Part shown: positions 8,032-25,618 of the stretch, in pieces | Numbering within the stretch: the first letter of the stretch is position 1 | Layout of the letters: each line of letters begins with the position of its first letter | Origin: Candidatus Pantoea soli | GTDB lineage: Bacteria; Pseudomonadota; Gammaproteobacteria; Enterobacterales; Enterobacteriaceae | DNA: 64,000 nucleotides | Direction of reading: 5' to 3' | Assembly (NCBI RefSeq): GCF_007833795.1 | Contig: NZ_CP032703.1 | Coordinates: 434,001-498,000, forward strand | Position numbers and translations under genes: made by a program | The notes under the pieces: model-generated | Databases searched by the model: none | The model's input: the letters and a program-made list of their open reading frames with translations, nothing else | Told to the model about the DNA's origin: nothing

Positions 8032-9948
8032 ATGAATATGATTAAAAAGCCATTTAACCTGAAAATAGGCGGAAAGTTAGCGCTGGGCTTTTCACTGGTC
8101 ATTATCTCCTCTTTAATTATCGCCACGCTTGCGCTGCGCTGTTTTTTAAATATTCAGGACAGTTCCGCCAAGCGTGACATCACCGTTGAAATGATGGATA
8201 CCCTCGCGAAAGCGCGGCTCAATCGCACGCTGTTCCAGTACACGCGTGATAAAAAATTCATCACCATCAACGGTGAAGCGATGAATAAGCTGGCACAGCT
8301 GAAACAGCGCCTGGACACATACCAGTGGAATGAAGAGGGCCAGCAAAAGCTGACGATGCTGGGGGATTTGCTCAGCCAGTACAATCAGAAACGTCAGGCC
8401 TTTATTGAAAACACCGATAAATCCATTGCTGCGCTGAGCAATCTGAATCTGAAAGCGGTCACTGATGTCGCCGAACAGCTGGCGACACCCGCGTCTTCGG
8501 TTCCCGCGGACAGCGTGGTTCCGCTCATCTCCCTTAGCCAGAAAATGGGCCAGATGGTTGCCGCCAGCCAGGCCTTTCTGAAAACCCCGGCAGATGACGC
8601 GCTGAATAGCGTAAGTCGCCGGCAGAGTGAAGTGAATGCGCTGATTACGCAGCTGAAAAGCAGCCCGGATGCAGTGGTGAGTGCGCTGGCTAACACCGTT
8701 CAGGACAAGACCACGCGGCTTTCGTCGCAGTTAAGTGACTATCAGCAGTTAGCCCGTAATGAAAAGCAGGCTTCCGATGCGATGACGCAGGCTGCGGAAA
8801 AACTAAACAGTTCAATGACTGAATTAACTTTCTTCCAGACCCGGACAGCAGAAAGGTATATTGATACCGCGCTGTGGCAGATTGGGATCACCACCATCGC
8901 CTGTATTGTGCTCAGCCTGCTGGTGGCGTGGCGCATGACGCGCAACATCACTGTGCCGCTGAAAGAAACGCTGTTCTCCGCGCAACGCATTGCAGAAGGT
9001 GATTTGACCACGGATATCACCAGCACCCGCACCGATGAGCTGGGACAGCTGATGGCCGCAGTGGGCGCCATGAACCTGAGCTTACGCACAATTATTACGC
9101 GGGTGCGTGATGGCGTGAACAGCGTGGCGCGCGCCTCTTCTGAGATCGCCGCCGGTAATACCGATCTCTCTTCCCGTACCGAACAGCAATCGGCGGCAGT
9201 AGTGGAAACGGCAGCCAGCATGGAAGAACTGACCTCAACGGTGAAACAGAACGCTGAAAACGCGCATCATGCCAGCCAGCTGGCAACAGAAGCCTCGCAC
9301 AACGCCAGCCGTGGTGGCGAGATTATTCACGATGTGATCAACACCATGGGTGGCATCAGCCAGAGCGCCGGTAAAATTGGTGAAATTATCACGGTGATCA
9401 ACGGGATTGCCTTCCAGACCAATATCCTGGCGCTCAACGCAGCGGTAGAAGCCGCGCGCGCGGGCGAACAGGGCCGGGGTTTTGCGGTGGTGGCGGGCGA
9501 AGTGCGCAACCTGGCGCAGCGCAGCTCGCTGGCGGCAAAAGAGATCGAAGCGTTAATCCGCGAATCACTGATGCGGGTGAATGACGGCACCACGCTGGTT
9601 AACCGCGCCGGTGACACCATGGGCGATATTGTTAAATCCGTTTCGCAGGTCAGGGATATCATGGGTGAAATCGCGGCGGCCTCTGACGAGCAAAACCGCG
9701 GTATTACGCAAATTGCTCAGGCCATGACCGAGATGGATACCACCACCCAGCAAAATGCGGCGCTGGTTGAGGAGTCTTCGGCGGCCGCCAGCAGTCTGGA
9801 AGATCAGGCGCTGGAGCTGGAAAAAACCGTCTCCGTATTCCGCGTTCCCGCTTCAGGACGGCTGGCACCGGTCGCACAGGTGCAGAAAAGCGTCAAACCG
9901 GCCCCGGCGGTAATGGCGACAGCCAGTGCCAACTGGGAAACGTTCTAA
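8032..9948 (+). CDS. Methyl-accepting chemotaxis protein with CheR/CheB tether
   Basis: This 638-residue transducer has a first membrane helix (about 14-37) and a large periplasmic sensing domain of roughly 245 residues, longer than the usual four-helix Tar/Tsr type. A second membrane helix (about 283-301), a HAMP segment beginning [10 protein letters not shown] and the cytoplasmic coiled-coil hairpin follow. The hairpin tip [18 protein letters not shown] is intact for CheA/CheW coupling. The last five residues are NWETF, the pentapeptide that recruits CheR and CheB, so this is a major, self-adapting receptor. The ligand cannot be read from the sequence. The FliA promoter upstream places it in the flagellar regulon. 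Confidence 0.95.
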
Positions 9949-10080: not shown

Positions 10081-10896
10081 TCAGTGGTCTGTCGCTTCCG
10101 CCTCAAACCAGGGCGTAATCAGCAGATGGGGAATGGCGAGGGCGGCGAGCGCGGCAAACAGCGAGCGGATACCCCGTGTATCGCCCGGCTGCATCATGCA
10201 GACCGTGATGGCTGCCAGCGCTAACGCGCTCAGCAGCACCGGCCAGGTGGCGCGCAGATAAGCTATATAGCCGGTACAGCCCAGTTGTTCGCGCCGCTGT
10301 GCTGTCTGCGGCAGGGCGTGCAGGATCAGGAAACCCATAGAAAAACCGACAAAAGGCGGCAGCAGCAGTAAGGCGAGCGTACCGGCGATAAGGCGCCAGT
10401 TGCGCTGCGTCACGCCGACGATCAACAACGCCGCTGCGGTGACACCGCCCGCCAGCGCCATGGCGGTGGTCAGGGCATCCAGGGCGGCGGCGTCCAGTCC
10501 GGCGCTGTGCAGAATTGTGCGCCAGCCAGCAGCGTGCAGAGTGGCCGGTGTGGCAATCAGACTGATGCCGCGGGCAAGACGTTCAGGCAGCGATCCGTCC
10601 GGGGCATCCTCAAGAGCAAAATGCAGCGCGGAGGCCAGCAGAAAACCGGGTAACGCCAGCGCCGGGCTGATGTGCCACCAGATAAGGCACAGCACCATCG
10701 CTACGCCATATCCGATCAAAAACAGCGGCTGTCTTTCCGGGCGCACGATGGCCAGATCGCTGGCACCATGCGCCATGCCGATCACACCAATGGCAATAAC
10801 CGCAAACAGTAACTGACAGACAGGCGGACTGAAAGAGGCAGCCAGCGCTGCCCCCCATAATATGCCCCATCCGGCGCATTGCTGTGGCAGGGTCAT
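10081..10896 (-). CDS. blh: Brp/Blh-type beta-carotene 15,15'-dioxygenase
   Basis: This 271-residue polytopic membrane protein belongs to the Brp/Blh family, which cleaves beta-carotene into two retinals. The conserved iron-binding histidines are visible: His43 in GMAHGASDL, His92 in ALHFALED, His193 in FLILHALPQ and His257 in IPHLL. Its ATG overlaps the rhodopsin stop codon (ATGA, 10893-10896), so the two are translationally coupled and the enzyme supplies the chromophore. The beta-carotene must come from a crt cluster elsewhere; none lies in this window. Confidence 0.93.
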   Translation of the reverse strand: MTLPQQCAGWGILWGAALAASFSPPVCQLLFAVIAIGVIGMAHGASDLAIVRPERQPLFLIGYGVAMVLCLIWWHISPALALPGFLLASALHFALEDAPDGSLPERLARGISLIATPATLHAAGWRTILHSAGLDAAALDALTTAMALAGGVTAAALLIVGVTQRNWRLIAGTLALLLLPPFVGFSMGFLILHALPQTAQRREQLGCTGYIAYLRATWPVLLSALALAAITVCMMQPGDTRGIRSLFAALAALAIPHLLITPWFEAEATDH

Positions 10897-11606
10897 ACCC
10901 GGTCAGCGCTGTGTCGTTGCGAATGGCGCAGGGCTTTTTCCAGGTTAGCCGCCGCGTAAAAGGCGTAAAACACCTTGGCGATGACATCCAGAATTAAAAA
11001 TGCCCAGACAGATGTGGCGTCAGTGATGATTTTTATCCCTTCCGGCCCCACCAGAAATACCACCGGATAGATAAACCAGACCACGGTTAACAGCGCGACA
11101 TTTTTGTTGTAGCAGGCTGCCATCACGCTGCCTTTGGCAGCGGCGATAGCCCGCAGCGGCCCCCACAGCAAATAAACCACGCCCAGGAACGCCGCGCAGG
11201 ACCACAAATACCACACCCATTTTGCAAACGGGGCTTCCGCCAGCGATGAGATCAGGCCGGTGACGATCATCATGACATCCAGCACGATAATGGCGGTTAA
11301 AAACCCACCCATTTCGCCAGGTTTGCCCTGCTCGTGGAATGCCAGCATCACCAGCCCTGCCAGCAAAATTGGTGTGGTAATTGACCAGTCCGCATAGCGC
11401 GCCAGGTAAACCGGGGTGCCACTGTCCAGCAGCACATTACCGAAGCCCAGCGCCATGGCCAGATACGCGGTGGCCGCAATAAACGGCACCGAGGCGTGCA
11501 TCAGCGTATGATGGCGGGAAGGAAAGGTTTTACCTCCGGTGGCATAAATTGCCAGCGAGGCAATGGCCATAATCGAAAAGCCGATTGTAAAGGCGGTCTG
11601 GTCCAT
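10893..11606 (-). CDS. Light-driven proton-pump rhodopsin lacking the carboxylic donor (Gly84) with helix-B His37
   Basis: This 237-residue seven-helix microbial rhodopsin has helix C RYADWSITTP, giving Arg70, counterion and proton acceptor Asp73, Trp74 and Thr77. Helix G carries Asp207 and the retinal-binding Lys211 in LDVIAK. The cytoplasmic donor position (Asp96 of bacteriorhodopsin, Glu in proteorhodopsin) is Gly84. His37 on helix B aligns with bacteriorhodopsin Thr46, counting from the conserved Pro41. This Gly plus His signature defines a described group of proteobacterial outward proton pumps in which the histidine complex replaces the carboxylic donor. CTCCT at 11615-11619 gives an AGGAG ribosome site. 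It is the first gene of a two-gene operon with blh. Confidence 0.95.
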   Translation of the reverse strand: MDQTAFTIGFSIMAIASLAIYATGGKTFPSRHHTLMHASVPFIAATAYLAMALGFGNVLLDSGTPVYLARYADWSITTPILLAGLVMLAFHEQGKPGEMGGFLTAIIVLDVMMIVTGLISSLAEAPFAKWVWYLWSCAAFLGVVYLLWGPLRAIAAAKGSVMAACYNKNVALLTVVWFIYPVVFLVGPEGIKIITDATSVWAFLILDVIAKVFYAFYAAANLEKALRHSQRHSADRV

Positions 11607-11671
11607 GCGAAATGCTCCTGTGCAGTCAGGCTGTAAATAATCCTGCGCGATGAATGATAAAAAAGGCGGTT

Positions 11672-11691
11672 ATATTCCATTTAAAGAATAT
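11672..11691 (-). promoter_or_regulatory. Dyad in the rhodopsin promoter region
   Basis: ATATTC and GAATAT flank eight A/T-rich bases, 66-85 bases upstream of the rhodopsin start. On the minus strand the dyad includes a TATAAC-like minus-10 element. It could be a repressor or activator site for the operon; the protein is unknown. Confidence 0.35.
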
Positions 11692-12812
11692 GCCTGAAGT
11701 ATATGTCCTGTTCCGCACTCTGCAAATTAACCCTGGGCAGGTGGACTTCTGATGAAAAATAACGCAACAAAAACCGCTTTAACTGCGCCGTAATTAACCG
11801 GAAAAAGCAGCGGTTATGTAATAGAGTGTGTAAAGATATGTAGGTTGCAGGCAAAAATCTTATCCCACCGCCGTAAAAATGCGGAAATTAATCAATAAAA
11901 TCATACAGATAAAAAGCAGCCACACCCGGTTAGCATAACTGGAACGAAAACCGTAAAATCCCGGTAAATTTATTTTTTATCCCGACCACCGTGTGTTTTT
12001 ATGCTAAAGCGAGACGGATGCGGGTGGGCGTTATCGTGCTGCAGGTTCAGCGTAACGCATTATGCCCTTTCCGGCGCGAAAGATTATTTTCCGGCGGCTT
12101 ATTCCCGCTAAAGCGGATGGCGGAAAAATAAGGCTTTCGCCGGCCAGCCAGCGGAACAGGCGATTGCGCCGTTTTCCGCGTTGCTGAATGTTCGCCGGCA
12201 GGGATGCAGGCAGGCATAAAAGCACGCCGGGCGTCACAGGCGTGTCTGATCCGCCACTGTTCAGCGGAAAGGCCAGTAAAAGAGAGCGGCCCGCGATAAG
12301 TTCGTTATCAGGAAGTGAAATACCGTGTTTTTTACCAGGCGCATTTCTGATGTCGGCAATAAACGTTTAATGACCGCCGTAATAATCACGCGCTGTATTC
12401 GCCGTGACTTTGTGACAGACCTCACACACCAGATGATTTCTGAAAATAATCTGCGGCGCAGAAAAATATTAAGGTTCAATTAATCTTAGCGGGGGATACT
12501 CCTTTCTATCCTGACGCAGAAGTTTAAACCAAAGGGGGCAAAAAAATCTTTTTATCGAAGCAACAGGGCTCCTGTAAGGCGGAGGGTGTTATTAACCCGT
12601 ATAACAATCGTCGGCAACCTTTTTTATACACACAGCTATCCGTTACGTAAATAATAGTCAGCAGGCCGCCTTTACCGGCATGCTGATATAAAGATGAAAG
12701 TGGGTGCGCCCTCACCAGGGGAACACCAGTGAAATCTATCACGCGCACGTTAAATAAAGACCCGACTGAAAAGGGTCAATACGGTAACGCTACACACAGC
12801 AACATTATTATT

Positions 12813-17586: not shown

Positions 17587-19131
17587 CTAAACCTGAAATT
17601 GTTCAACCATACCCTGCAACGCGCGCGCCTGCTCAGAGAGGGATTGTGATGCGGAAGAGGACTCTTCCACCAGCGCCGCATTGTTTTGCGTCACGCCATC
17701 CATCTGGCTGACTGCCACGCTGATCTGGGAAATTCCCTGCATCTGCTCATTAGAAGCCAGAGAAATCGTGTCCATGGCTTCCGCCAGTTCACTGACCATA
17801 CCGACAATGCGCAGAATGCTCTGCCCGGTGCCAGAGGCAACCGCGACTCCGCTCTCTACCTGCGCCACCGCCTGCTCAATCAGCGATTTAATGTCCCGCG
17901 CGGCGGTCGCGCTGCGCTGCGCCAGCGTTCTGACTTCGCCGGCCACCACCGCAAACCCCCGTCCATCCTCGCCGGCACGTGCGGCTTCCACCGCCGCGTT
18001 CAGCGCCAGAATGTTGGTCTGAAAGGCAATGCTTTCAATCACCGCGGTGATGTCCCGTACCCGGCTGGCGCTGCGGGAGATTTCATGCATGGTGTCCGAC
18101 ATCTGTTTCATGTCTGCTTCACCGGCCTGCGCCAGCTGCGCGGTTTCACGCGCGGTTGACGCGGTGTGACGGGCGCTGGTCGTGTTGCTTTTCACCGTTG
18201 CCGTCAGCTGTTCCATGCTGGCGGCGGTCTCCTGAAGTGCTGCGGCTTGTTGCTCGGTGCGGGAAGAGAGTTCCGTATTACCCTGCGAAATTTCGTCAGC
18301 GGCCATTGCCACAGACGCGGAAGAATCTTTGATCTGTGACACCAGACCGCGCAGGTTTGCCTGCATGGCATCCAGGGATGCCAGCAGACTGCGGGTATCA
18401 TTCGGCCGCAGCGTGACAGCTGATGTCAGATCGCCCGCCGCAATGGTTGCCGCCAGCGCCTGCGCCTGCGCGGGTTCGCCGCCCAGCTGACGCATCAGTA
18501 CCCGGATGATGATCAGACAGGTCGCTGCACCGATCAGCACCGAGGCCAGCCCCAGCGCCATCAGTATCAGGCTGGCGTTATCTGTCCGACGGCTGTTTAA
18601 CTCCACCGCCGTGCGGGTGTTTTGCATTTCCGCCTCGGTCATCACCTCAAGCCCTTTCAGCAACGCAGTCTGTGCCGGTCGCGCGACCGTCATCAGAAAG
18701 GTGGTGGCTTCTGCGGCGCGGTTCTGCAACCCCAGCTGTCCGGCCTGCTCCAGTGCGGCGAGTGCCGCCTGCTCTGCCGCCATAACCTGCTGCATCCCTT
18801 CCCGCCCCTGGGCGGAGGCGTCACTTTTCATCATCTCTTCCAGCGCCTGACGGCTCGATAAATAGAGCGCCTTCTGTTTCTGCAGGCGTTCCCATTCCGG
18901 TTGCATGTCTTTCATCTCCGTCAGCAACACCATGTTGCGCGCGGCGATAGCCATATCCCGAATGCTGCCACGCATATTCAGCGCCAGCTGGTACTGCTTC
19001 ATTTTCACGTTTACGGCGTTGTCCATTCCCTCCCGCGCCTGGTTCAGCGCATTCAGCCCGGTGCCGATGCACACCACGAACAGTAAAATTAATAAACCAA
19101 AGCCGCTAAAAAGGCGGGTTGATATTTTCAT
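17587..19131 (-). CDS. Methyl-accepting chemotaxis protein without CheR tether
   Basis: The transducer has 514 residues from ATG 19131; an alternative ATG three codons earlier abuts its own GGG sequence. It has a first membrane helix (about 10-30), a compact four-helix-bundle periplasmic domain (LNMRGSIRDMAIAARNMVLL), a second helix near 190-210, HAMP, and the signalling hairpin with tip [18 protein letters not shown]. The C-terminus ends MVEQFQV with no NWETF-type pentapeptide, so it depends on other receptors for efficient adaptation. The ligand is unknown. It is unlinked to che or flagellar genes in this window. Confidence 0.93.
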   Translation of the reverse strand: MKISTRLFSGFGLLILLFVVCIGTGLNALNQAREGMDNAVNVKMKQYQLALNMRGSIRDMAIAARNMVLLTEMKDMQPEWERLQKQKALYLSSRQALEEMMKSDASAQGREGMQQVMAAEQAALAALEQAGQLGLQNRAAEATTFLMTVARPAQTALLKGLEVMTEAEMQNTRTAVELNSRRTDNASLILMALGLASVLIGAATCLIIIRVLMRQLGGEPAQAQALAATIAAGDLTSAVTLRPNDTRSLLASLDAMQANLRGLVSQIKDSSASVAMAADEISQGNTELSSRTEQQAAALQETAASMEQLTATVKSNTTSARHTASTARETAQLAQAGEADMKQMSDTMHEISRSASRVRDITAVIESIAFQTNILALNAAVEAARAGEDGRGFAVVAGEVRTLAQRSATAARDIKSLIEQAVAQVESGVAVASGTGQSILRIVGMVSELAEAMDTISLASNEQMQGISQISVAVSQMDGVTQNNAALVEESSSASQSLSEQARALQGMVEQFQV

Positions 19132-19167
19132 CTGACGCATCCCATATGCAAATTATGAATAAAGACA

Positions 19168-24055: not shown

Positions 24056-25282
24056 TCAGAAAAACTGATAGGAACCACCCCGGCGCGCTTTCGCCTGGTA
24101 CATCGCTTTATCGGCCTGCTCAAACAGCACGGCGGCATCCGGCTTTGCAGAGCCGGCAAGGCTGATGCCAATCGCCGCGCCAATGCGCACTTCCATGTTA
24201 TTCATTAAAAAAGGCTCACGCAGGGTTTCCAGCATCCGCCGGGCGATACCGGCGGCAGCGTCACGCGTTCCGCACTTCGCGGCCACCACAAATTCGTCGC
24301 CGCCCAGTCGCGCCACGGCATCGCCCGGACGCATGCAGCGCTGCAGCCGCTCGCTGACCTGCTGCAGCAGCACATCGCCGGTGGCGTGGCCCATTGAATC
24401 ATTCACCGCTTTAAAGCCATTGAGATCGATAAACATCACCGTGGTGAGCGCCGGATGCTGCGCCAGCATCCGCTTCACCCGGTCAGTGATCCAGGCCCGG
24501 TTCGGCAGGCCGGTCAGCGTGTCGCGGGTCGCCAGCGTTTCCAGTTTGTGCAGTTTCTCTTTGTCGCGGGAAATGTCGCGCGAAACCAGCACCGCGCCGA
24601 TGTTTTTGCCGCTGGAGGGATCGCTGACACCGCACGCCTTGGTGCCAAGGGCCACATAGTGCCCGTCGCGATGCAGCTTGCGCACCTCGACGACGTCCGC
24701 CAGCTCGCCACCGCTAAAAATATGCCCCAGCGCCTCGCTGGCTGGCGTCTGGTCGTCGGGATGCAGGAAATCCACCACCGGCCGGCCAATTATCTCATCG
24801 GCGGACCAGCCAATCATTTCGCAGTAGGAGGGAGAGATAGAAACATATCGCCCTTCGGTATCGCAGTGCGCGATCAAATCGGTGCTGTTTTCAATCAGCA
24901 GCCGGTACTCTGTTGCCGTACGCAGCGCCTCTTCCAGCGCTTTGCGCTGGCCGGTGATATCAATAATGAAGCCGTTATATTGCCGGTGTGACGCACCGGC
25001 ATGGTCATCCGGCAGGCCGGATACAATGACGTGCCGCGTGATGCCGTCCAGACACTGAATGGGCACTTCCAGATGAAACGGGGAGACACACTCCAGCGCG
25101 GCGGTAAGCTGCAGCGCTATCCTGCCATCTTCATCCGCCTGCGCCAGCCGCAGCCAGGCGCACAGCGTCACACCTTTCAGCGCCGGCATCAGGCCAGCCG
25201 GACTCTCCTGGCTGCTGACGCAGATGCCCCGTGCGTCCGTGGACCAGACAGCGGAAAAAGTAGGGGTGATCACAGGGGTCAT
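24056..25282 (-). CDS. PAS-GGDEF diguanylate cyclase under a flagellar-type promoter
   Basis: The product has 408 residues from ATG 25282, which follows GGAG. Two PAS-type sensor modules occupy roughly residues 1-125 and 130-250, the second with SYCEMIGWSADEIIGRPVVD. A C-terminal GGDEF domain carries the intact catalytic RLGGDEF and the product-inhibition I-site RPGD exactly five residues before it. It should therefore make cyclic di-GMP and be feedback-inhibited. No EAL domain is present and the protein is soluble. The frame is open further upstream to 25513, but that part lacks a ribosome site. A FliA promoter at 25522-25549 would make it a flagellar-regulon enzyme. Confidence 0.9.
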   Translation of the reverse strand: MTPVITPTFSAVWSTDARGICVSSQESPAGLMPALKGVTLCAWLRLAQADEDGRIALQLTAALECVSPFHLEVPIQCLDGITRHVIVSGLPDDHAGASHRQYNGFIIDITGQRKALEEALRTATEYRLLIENSTDLIAHCDTEGRYVSISPSYCEMIGWSADEIIGRPVVDFLHPDDQTPASEALGHIFSGGELADVVEVRKLHRDGHYVALGTKACGVSDPSSGKNIGAVLVSRDISRDKEKLHKLETLATRDTLTGLPNRAWITDRVKRMLAQHPALTTVMFIDLNGFKAVNDSMGHATGDVLLQQVSERLQRCMRPGDAVARLGGDEFVVAAKCGTRDAAAGIARRMLETLREPFLMNNMEVRIGAAIGISLAGSAKPDAAVLFEQADKAMYQAKARRGGSYQFF

Positions 25283-25618
25283 GGTCGGCTCCGTTGTTTG
25301 CTGACGATACAAAACGGGCAGGCTGCCCGGTGTTACAGACTTTCTGATCGCCATCGTTGCCGCCTTCACCCGCCGGGAGGGAGTGCGGTAAAAATGTTCA
25401 GTTACGCGACTTCCATGCTGGCCGGTGACGAAGAGGGTAGCCATTCGCACGGCGTCATTCATGCACTGCAGGGCAGACACGCCTGTATGACGGGATTCCG
25501 GGTCAGAAGTCATTACCCGGGTTATCGGCCATGCCGCCGCGAATCTTTAATCTGCACCGCTGCACAGGAAGACTATGCGGTCTGCGTCACATCCGGTTGC
25601 CCTTTCTCCCTCTGCGCG
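25283..25618. other. Leader of the diguanylate cyclase gene
   Basis: From the FliA promoter to the preferred ATG is a leader of about 230 bases, unusually long. It contains in-frame start codons without ribosome sites. I see no separate gene. Confidence 0.5.
25522..25549 (-). promoter_or_regulatory. FliA (sigma-28) promoter
   Basis: On the minus strand this reads TAAAGATT, 12 bases, GCCGATAA. The minus-10 is a perfect consensus match and the minus-35 differs by one base from TAAAGTTT. The spacer is one base longer than the standard 11, which FliA tolerates. It points at the diguanylate cyclase gene. Confidence 0.7.

Follow-up and report, generated by a model that had tools for sequence, protein, structure and literature searches.

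A mirror-proteorhodopsin gene overlapping a divergent Brp/Blh gene of a Gln197 branch in Candidatus Pantoea soli

The described mirror proteorhodopsins are SpaR from Sphingomonas paucimobilis, PaR from Pantoea ananatis and PspR from Pseudomonas putida, the latter two being the work of Harris et al., as cited in PMC10154332. In that source, D73 is the proton acceptor and H37 the proposed donor, with H32, H33 and E92 located around a cytoplasmic cavity. SpaR absorbs at 540 nm, is inhibited by millimolar zinc, and pumps outward at acid pH and not at neutral pH; acid-only pumping of PaR and PspR is presented there as an inference by the SpaR authors. For the 66A03 Blh, the review PMC9227343 reports less than 5% activity for each alanine mutant of His21, His78, His188 and His192. 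Here I describe a rhodopsin-blh pair in a window of 64,000 nucleotides (the whole stretch of DNA analysed), corresponding to bases 434001-498000 of the 556,856-base contig C2 in the 4.63 Mb, five-contig genome of Candidatus Pantoea soli.

A rhodopsin of the mirror type and its gene pair

The first-pass annotation had placed a rhodopsin and an overlapping Brp/Blh gene at this position, and both are found there, in open reading frames that look intact, with the rhodopsin stop and the blh ATG sharing four nucleotides, ATGA (Table 1). The rhodopsin matches the Pfam family Bac_rhodopsin (PF01036) with an E-value of 1.8e-46. The Blh matches BCD (beta-carotene dioxygenase, PF15461) at 74.9 bits, above the Pfam cut-off of 28, and is 2.7 bits short of the NCBIfam TIGR03753 cut-off (92.6 vs 95.25 bits). 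Pairwise dN/dS between the window and nine relatives is 0.072-0.125 for the rhodopsin and 0.135-0.287 for Blh, with dS above 1 and therefore saturated; in four pairs of relatives that are closer to each other (dS 0.12-1.07), the ratios are 0.03-0.08 and 0.14-0.23, respectively. By this measure Blh evolves faster than the rhodopsin; it is under purifying selection, with no sign of decay.

Table 1. Coordinates of the gene pair and of candidate control elements in the window.
Feature	Coordinates	Strand	Basis
Rhodopsin gene, 237 aa, mirror-proteorhodopsin type	10893..11606	-	ORF; PF01036; diagnostic residues; structure match
Brp/Blh beta-carotene dioxygenase-like gene, 271 aa, Gln197 branch	10081..10896	-	ORF; PF15461; residues
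Possible sigma-70 promoter of the pair, TTTGCA-17-TATACT	11698..11726	-	Consensus scan; TATACT conservation
Inverted repeat CATATTC-N9-GAATATAA, just downstream of the promoter-like site	11670..11692	-	Pattern match

Upstream of the pair, the consensus scan found two promoter-like sites where 1.3 are expected, so that the scan by itself is weak and not above chance; TATACT is kept in all 11 aligned upstream sequences, which are not independent since several come from close relatives. The inverted repeat keeps its ATATTC/GAATAT form in 9 of these 11, with varying spacing, and is absent in L018 and L019. Its pattern matches once in the genome, at the site in Table 1, and the reversed control gave no match. 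Because the spacing varies, the repeat is possibly a leader hairpin rather than an operator.

The residues of the rhodopsin include H32, H33, H37, T46, Y48, R70, D73, T77, L81 and G84, followed by E92, S121, S199, D207 and K211. PMC10154332 defines mirror proteorhodopsins by D73 and T77 with Gly, Ser or Thr at position 84 (no carboxylic donor), where the window rhodopsin has G84, and by the helix-B His37 with His32, His33, Ser121 and Ser199, all five of which are present. The DT(G/S/T) motif, H32, H33, H37, E92, S121, S199, D207 and K211 are thus common to the window rhodopsin and SpaR, PaR and PspR, with Gly at position 84 in the former as opposed to Ser in SpaR. Identity is 70% with the protein of S. 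paucimobilis in L027 and 80% with that of P. ananatis LMG 2665 in L015. Its best match among solved structures is 8anq, which I take to be SpaR, followed by 7w74. The nearest of 22 related loci in a one-genome-per-species collection are from Pantoea and Erwinia (75-87% identity), then Sphingomonas and Stakelama (67-72%), Rosenbergiella (61%), and Croceicoccus and Aurantiacibacter (51-52%). Rhodopsin identities of 66-72% to Sphingomonas and Stakelama relatives, together with the 8anq match, are consistent with a place in a SpaR-like clade.

Judged from its sequence, the window rhodopsin is a member of the published SpaR/PaR/PspR mirror proteorhodopsins, a group that is itself already known. The first-pass annotation had pointed to a proteobacterial pump group marked by Gly in place of the donor and by a His on helix B, and had proposed a comparison of helix-B/C residues with the PspR group; the residues match those of SpaR, PaR and PspR, with all mirror-type positions present. 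In xanthorhodopsin-like antenna pumps, a Gly on helix E opens a side window. Assignment to such carotenoid-antenna pumps was rejected, the window rhodopsin having Tyr at this position (VWYLWS). The three DTE rhodopsins shown (L050, L054 and L061) have Gly at the same place, within LWGTLS or IWGTLS.

Blh histidines and the partner rhodopsin

Aligned with canonical Blhs, whose motif is HSxxH, the window Blh reads H193-A-L-P-Q197, so that the equivalent of 66A03 His192 is Gln197. Three of the four histidines reported as essential in 66A03 are present (H43, H92 and H193, equivalent to His21, His78 and His188), and the protein is therefore filed as a divergent PF15461 member, not as a canonical Blh. 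It has in common with the 66A03 type the PF15461 domain, these three histidines and a C-terminal H257, and differs by Gln197 for His192, HAxPQT for HSxxH, and Glu96 for Asp. The first-pass annotation had described a pump coupled to its own retinal-making enzyme, with four intact histidines. H43, H92, H193 and H257 are indeed all there, as is the gene, but the His192 equivalent, reported as essential, is not. Since this histidine is missing, the activity of the window Blh can only be inferred and is not a given.

The substitution is not a peculiarity of one protein. Among the window Blh and the best 120 of its 123 window-like homologues, residue 197 is Gln in 120 of 121 and Lys in one, while it is His in all of the best 120 of 238 homologues of the canonical enzyme (both lists consisting of 90%-identity cluster representatives). 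H43, H92, H193, H257, D47 and E96 are invariant in the former 121 sequences. In the latter 120, H193 and H257 are always present, H43 is found in 115 (five gaps) and H92 in 117 (two gaps, one Ile). The AlphaFold model of the window Blh is confident (mean pLDDT 90.8, and 90.2 for the canonical Blh model); in it, H43, H92 and H257 are each carried by a helix of their own, and a further helix holds both H193 and Q197, at a distance of four residues. I propose that H43, H92, H193 and H257 form a common metal site, to which residue 197 may be auxiliary. Against such a site in the canonical enzyme stands the loss of activity of the His192 mutant, as reported in PMC9227343.

I then compared residue 197 with the type of the partner rhodopsin. 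A scan of 66 loci found 63 with a Blh and 58 with a rhodopsin; in the partner counts, six duplicates were dropped and the window was included. The 28 mirror-type (H37) rhodopsins, which are no unbiased sample since most of their loci were fetched by similarity to the window rhodopsin, comprise 26 with a Gln197 Blh (26 of 27 partner Blhs), one with Leu and one without Blh in the fetched stretch. The Leu is found in Croceicoccus (L031, 6687-7481), where a mirror-like rhodopsin accompanies a Blh reading HSLPL; the fetched stretch in which no Blh was found is from Aurantiacibacter (L032), and also has a mirror-like rhodopsin. Residue 197 is His in all 11 partners of DTE rhodopsins and in both partners of A37 DTS-type rhodopsins, and in none of the 10 partners of NTQ rhodopsins (six Val, and one each of Ile, Leu, Met and Arg). 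Two loci whose rhodopsin is unaligned at the motif have Arg, and six without a rhodopsin in the flank have His (three), Ala (two) or Val (one). The NTQ-partnered Blhs show that the loss of this His is wider than the branch of the window. Loci L045-L082 were obtained by searching 398 and 296 genomes for Blh, only the best 30 matches of the second search being made into loci. Among them, L064 and L069 encode Blh-like proteins with HGIRAL and Ala at position 197, no rhodopsin being detected closer than about 1.5 kb, and the Sphingomonadales loci L070-L082 have NTQ-partnered Blhs with Val, Leu, Ile, Met or Arg at the position of the fourth-ligand His.

In a tree of 82 Blh rows, the Gln197 branch forms a single group apart from one Lys row (100/98), and is joined to the NTQ-partner branch (99/89, midpoint root). 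The Croceicoccus pair, and a rhodopsin-less pair that lacks His197, are placed among His197 rows. His occupies positions 43, 92 and 193 in every one of the 82 rows, and position 257 in 81, the remaining row having a gap. The NTQ-partnered Blhs of Sphingomonadales (L071, L073-L081) resemble the window branch, with which they are grouped, in lacking His197 and keeping H43, H92, H193 and H257, and differ in having Val, Leu, Ile, Met or Arg instead of Gln and a partner rhodopsin of another motif. No description of the Gln197 branch was found in the open-licence literature searched, and no experiments on the window Blh or any Gln197-type Blh were found in the literature searched.

Carotenoid supply, distribution and surroundings

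A probable source of beta-carotene is encoded on the same contig. Along locus L009 of C2, the genes for a prenyl synthase (crtE) and a glycosyltransferase (crtX) are followed by crtY, crtI, crtB and a converging crtZ-like ORF. The NCBIfam scores are above cut-off for crtY (484.7 vs 215.2 bits), the crtI family (767.7 vs 238.1) and crtB (567.5 vs 480). Related models are matched below cut-off by crtE and crtX, and none by the crtZ-like ORF, so these three names are my assumption, based on gene order. The cluster spans approximately 410.3-416.6 kb of the contig and blh 444.1-444.9 kb, with a gap of about 27 kb between them. The search for crtE-B-I-Y that the first-pass annotation had recommended is therefore answered on the same contig, with crtE named from gene order, and its refuting condition of a genome lacking any carotenoid pathway does not apply. 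A search for RPE65-type carotenoid oxygenases, positive in 2 of 14 control genomes, found none in the window's genome, where no other known retinal maker is thus seen. Thirty plasmid records match the crt region (28 are from Pantoea, and 16 have a query coverage of 80% or more), so that C2 is probably a Pantoea megaplasmid, presumably the one named LPP-1.

The rhodopsin was found in 7 of 60 genomes, its own included, all seven belonging to the same genus, which accounts for 36 of the genomes searched. Blh adjoins the rhodopsin in each of the seven, and none was found in the other 53 at an E-value of 0.001. crtB is present in all seven, and in 34 of the 36 members of the genus. The cassette and crtB are on one contig in the window's genome and in G020, and the other five genomes have them on separate contigs, with the cassette of G016 and that of G033 on a contig of roughly 4 Mb. 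In a comparison of 13 loci, DNA similarity is mostly limited to the pair and at most some 125 bases upstream of it, the exceptions being three closely related pairs, chemotaxis-gene matches, and stretches common to L013 with L018 and L019. Only two of 72,556 plasmid records, one from Pantoea anthophila and one from Sphingomonas parapaucimobilis, match the cassette region. The pair thus looks like a unit that is often gained, lost or moved.

The pair is flanked by genes for methyl-accepting chemotaxis proteins, at 8032-9948 and 17587-19140. Between 13740 and 16068 are a VIT-family gene, an ABC ATPase and a UPF0014 membrane protein, the last two of which I assume to resemble the FetAB iron exporter. 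A PAS-GGDEF diguanylate cyclase gene at 24056-25513 has counterparts on two plasmids of Pantoea piersonii, with about 78% DNA identity along 0.9 kb.

Proposed function of the pair

I consider it likely that these genes constitute a working, acid-active, two-gene retinal photosystem, in which the retinal is supplied by a divergent Blh whose metal site is altered. In favour of this are the full set of mirror-type residues, the crt genes on the contig, the joint occurrence of rhodopsin, Blh and crtB in all seven rhodopsin-bearing genomes, the RPE65-type search that found no other retinal maker, and the constraint on Blh, including its Gln197. Blh would cleave beta-carotene from the crt cluster to retinal, which the rhodopsin would bind at K211. 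In the light, the Schiff-base proton would be transferred to D73 and on to the outside, and a proton would return from the cytoplasm via H37 instead of a carboxylic donor, with H32, H33 and E92 lining the entrance. By analogy with SpaR, the rhodopsin may be a green-absorbing outward pump at acid pH, inhibited by millimolar zinc. The Blh, on its side branch with Gln197 for the fourth classical iron-ligand His, would still be active, its metal held by H43, H92, H193 and H257, and Gln197 would be auxiliary or second-shell. As SpaR pumps outward at acid pH only, light-made proton-motive force on leaves, as the first-pass annotation had inferred it, would hold only in an acid setting. The main point of the first-pass annotation is thus right, but it left this acid limit unmentioned and overstated the integrity of Blh.

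It could be argued that Gln197-type Blhs make no retinal from beta-carotene, being inactive or producing another apocarotenoid, and that the opsin takes up retinal from outside. The Gln at a position reported as essential in 66A03 (PMC9227343) and the score under the NCBIfam Blh cut-off both speak for this. Yet the gene is constrained and adjoins the rhodopsin in every rhodopsin-bearing genome (7 of 7, among 60 searched), the retention of Gln197 in 120 of 121 sequences (the window and the best 120 of 123 homologues) is unlike decay, and Blhs without His197 are also found beside all 10 NTQ rhodopsins examined; I therefore regard such a loss of retinal synthesis as unlikely.

Two further alternatives concern the rhodopsin itself. 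The gene next to the pair, whose end is about 130 bases from that of blh, is the chemotaxis receptor gene at 8032-9948, and of 19 other loci, four (L013, L016, L018 and L019) have a related receptor in their fetched flanks, as might be expected if the rhodopsin were a light sensor paired with this receptor. However, the other 15 loci yielded no receptor, L018 and L019 are closely related to each other, the L016 receptor lies upstream of the rhodopsin, at the opposite end of the pair, and the window rhodopsin retains the residues of characterised pumps, which makes a sensor very improbable. The least probable alternative is that the rhodopsin pumps sodium in the manner of MpR from Methylobacterium populi, which has the same DTG motif according to PMC10154332; the carboxylates at positions 30, 31 and 33 (SpaR numbering) that mark MpR-like proteins in that source are replaced here by S30, R31 and H33, and H32, S121 and S199 are of the SpaR type, so membership in this sodium-pump group was rejected.

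A photosystem fed by the divergent Blh thus being the preferred reading, the rhodopsin extends a published pump group to one more Pantoea-like genome, in which carotenoid genes and the retinal enzyme are found together with it. The Blh result is weightier than the pump, and the Gln197 branch is the part worth following. The chances seem about even that the Blhs paired with mirror-type pumps are an undescribed functional subfamily of retinal synthases, lacking the His that defines the iron site of the model enzyme and using H43, H92, H193 and H257, with Gln197 tuning the metal or the substrate and residue 197 changing together with the type of the partner rhodopsin across Proteobacteria. In the literature searched, the four-histidine iron site of bacterial retinal synthases is apparently based on mutations in one marine enzyme, and here a large natural branch of Blh is without one of the four histidines reported as essential. 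If Gln197-type Blhs are active, the metal site of the family would have to be redefined; if they are inactive, their rhodopsins would be fed in another way.
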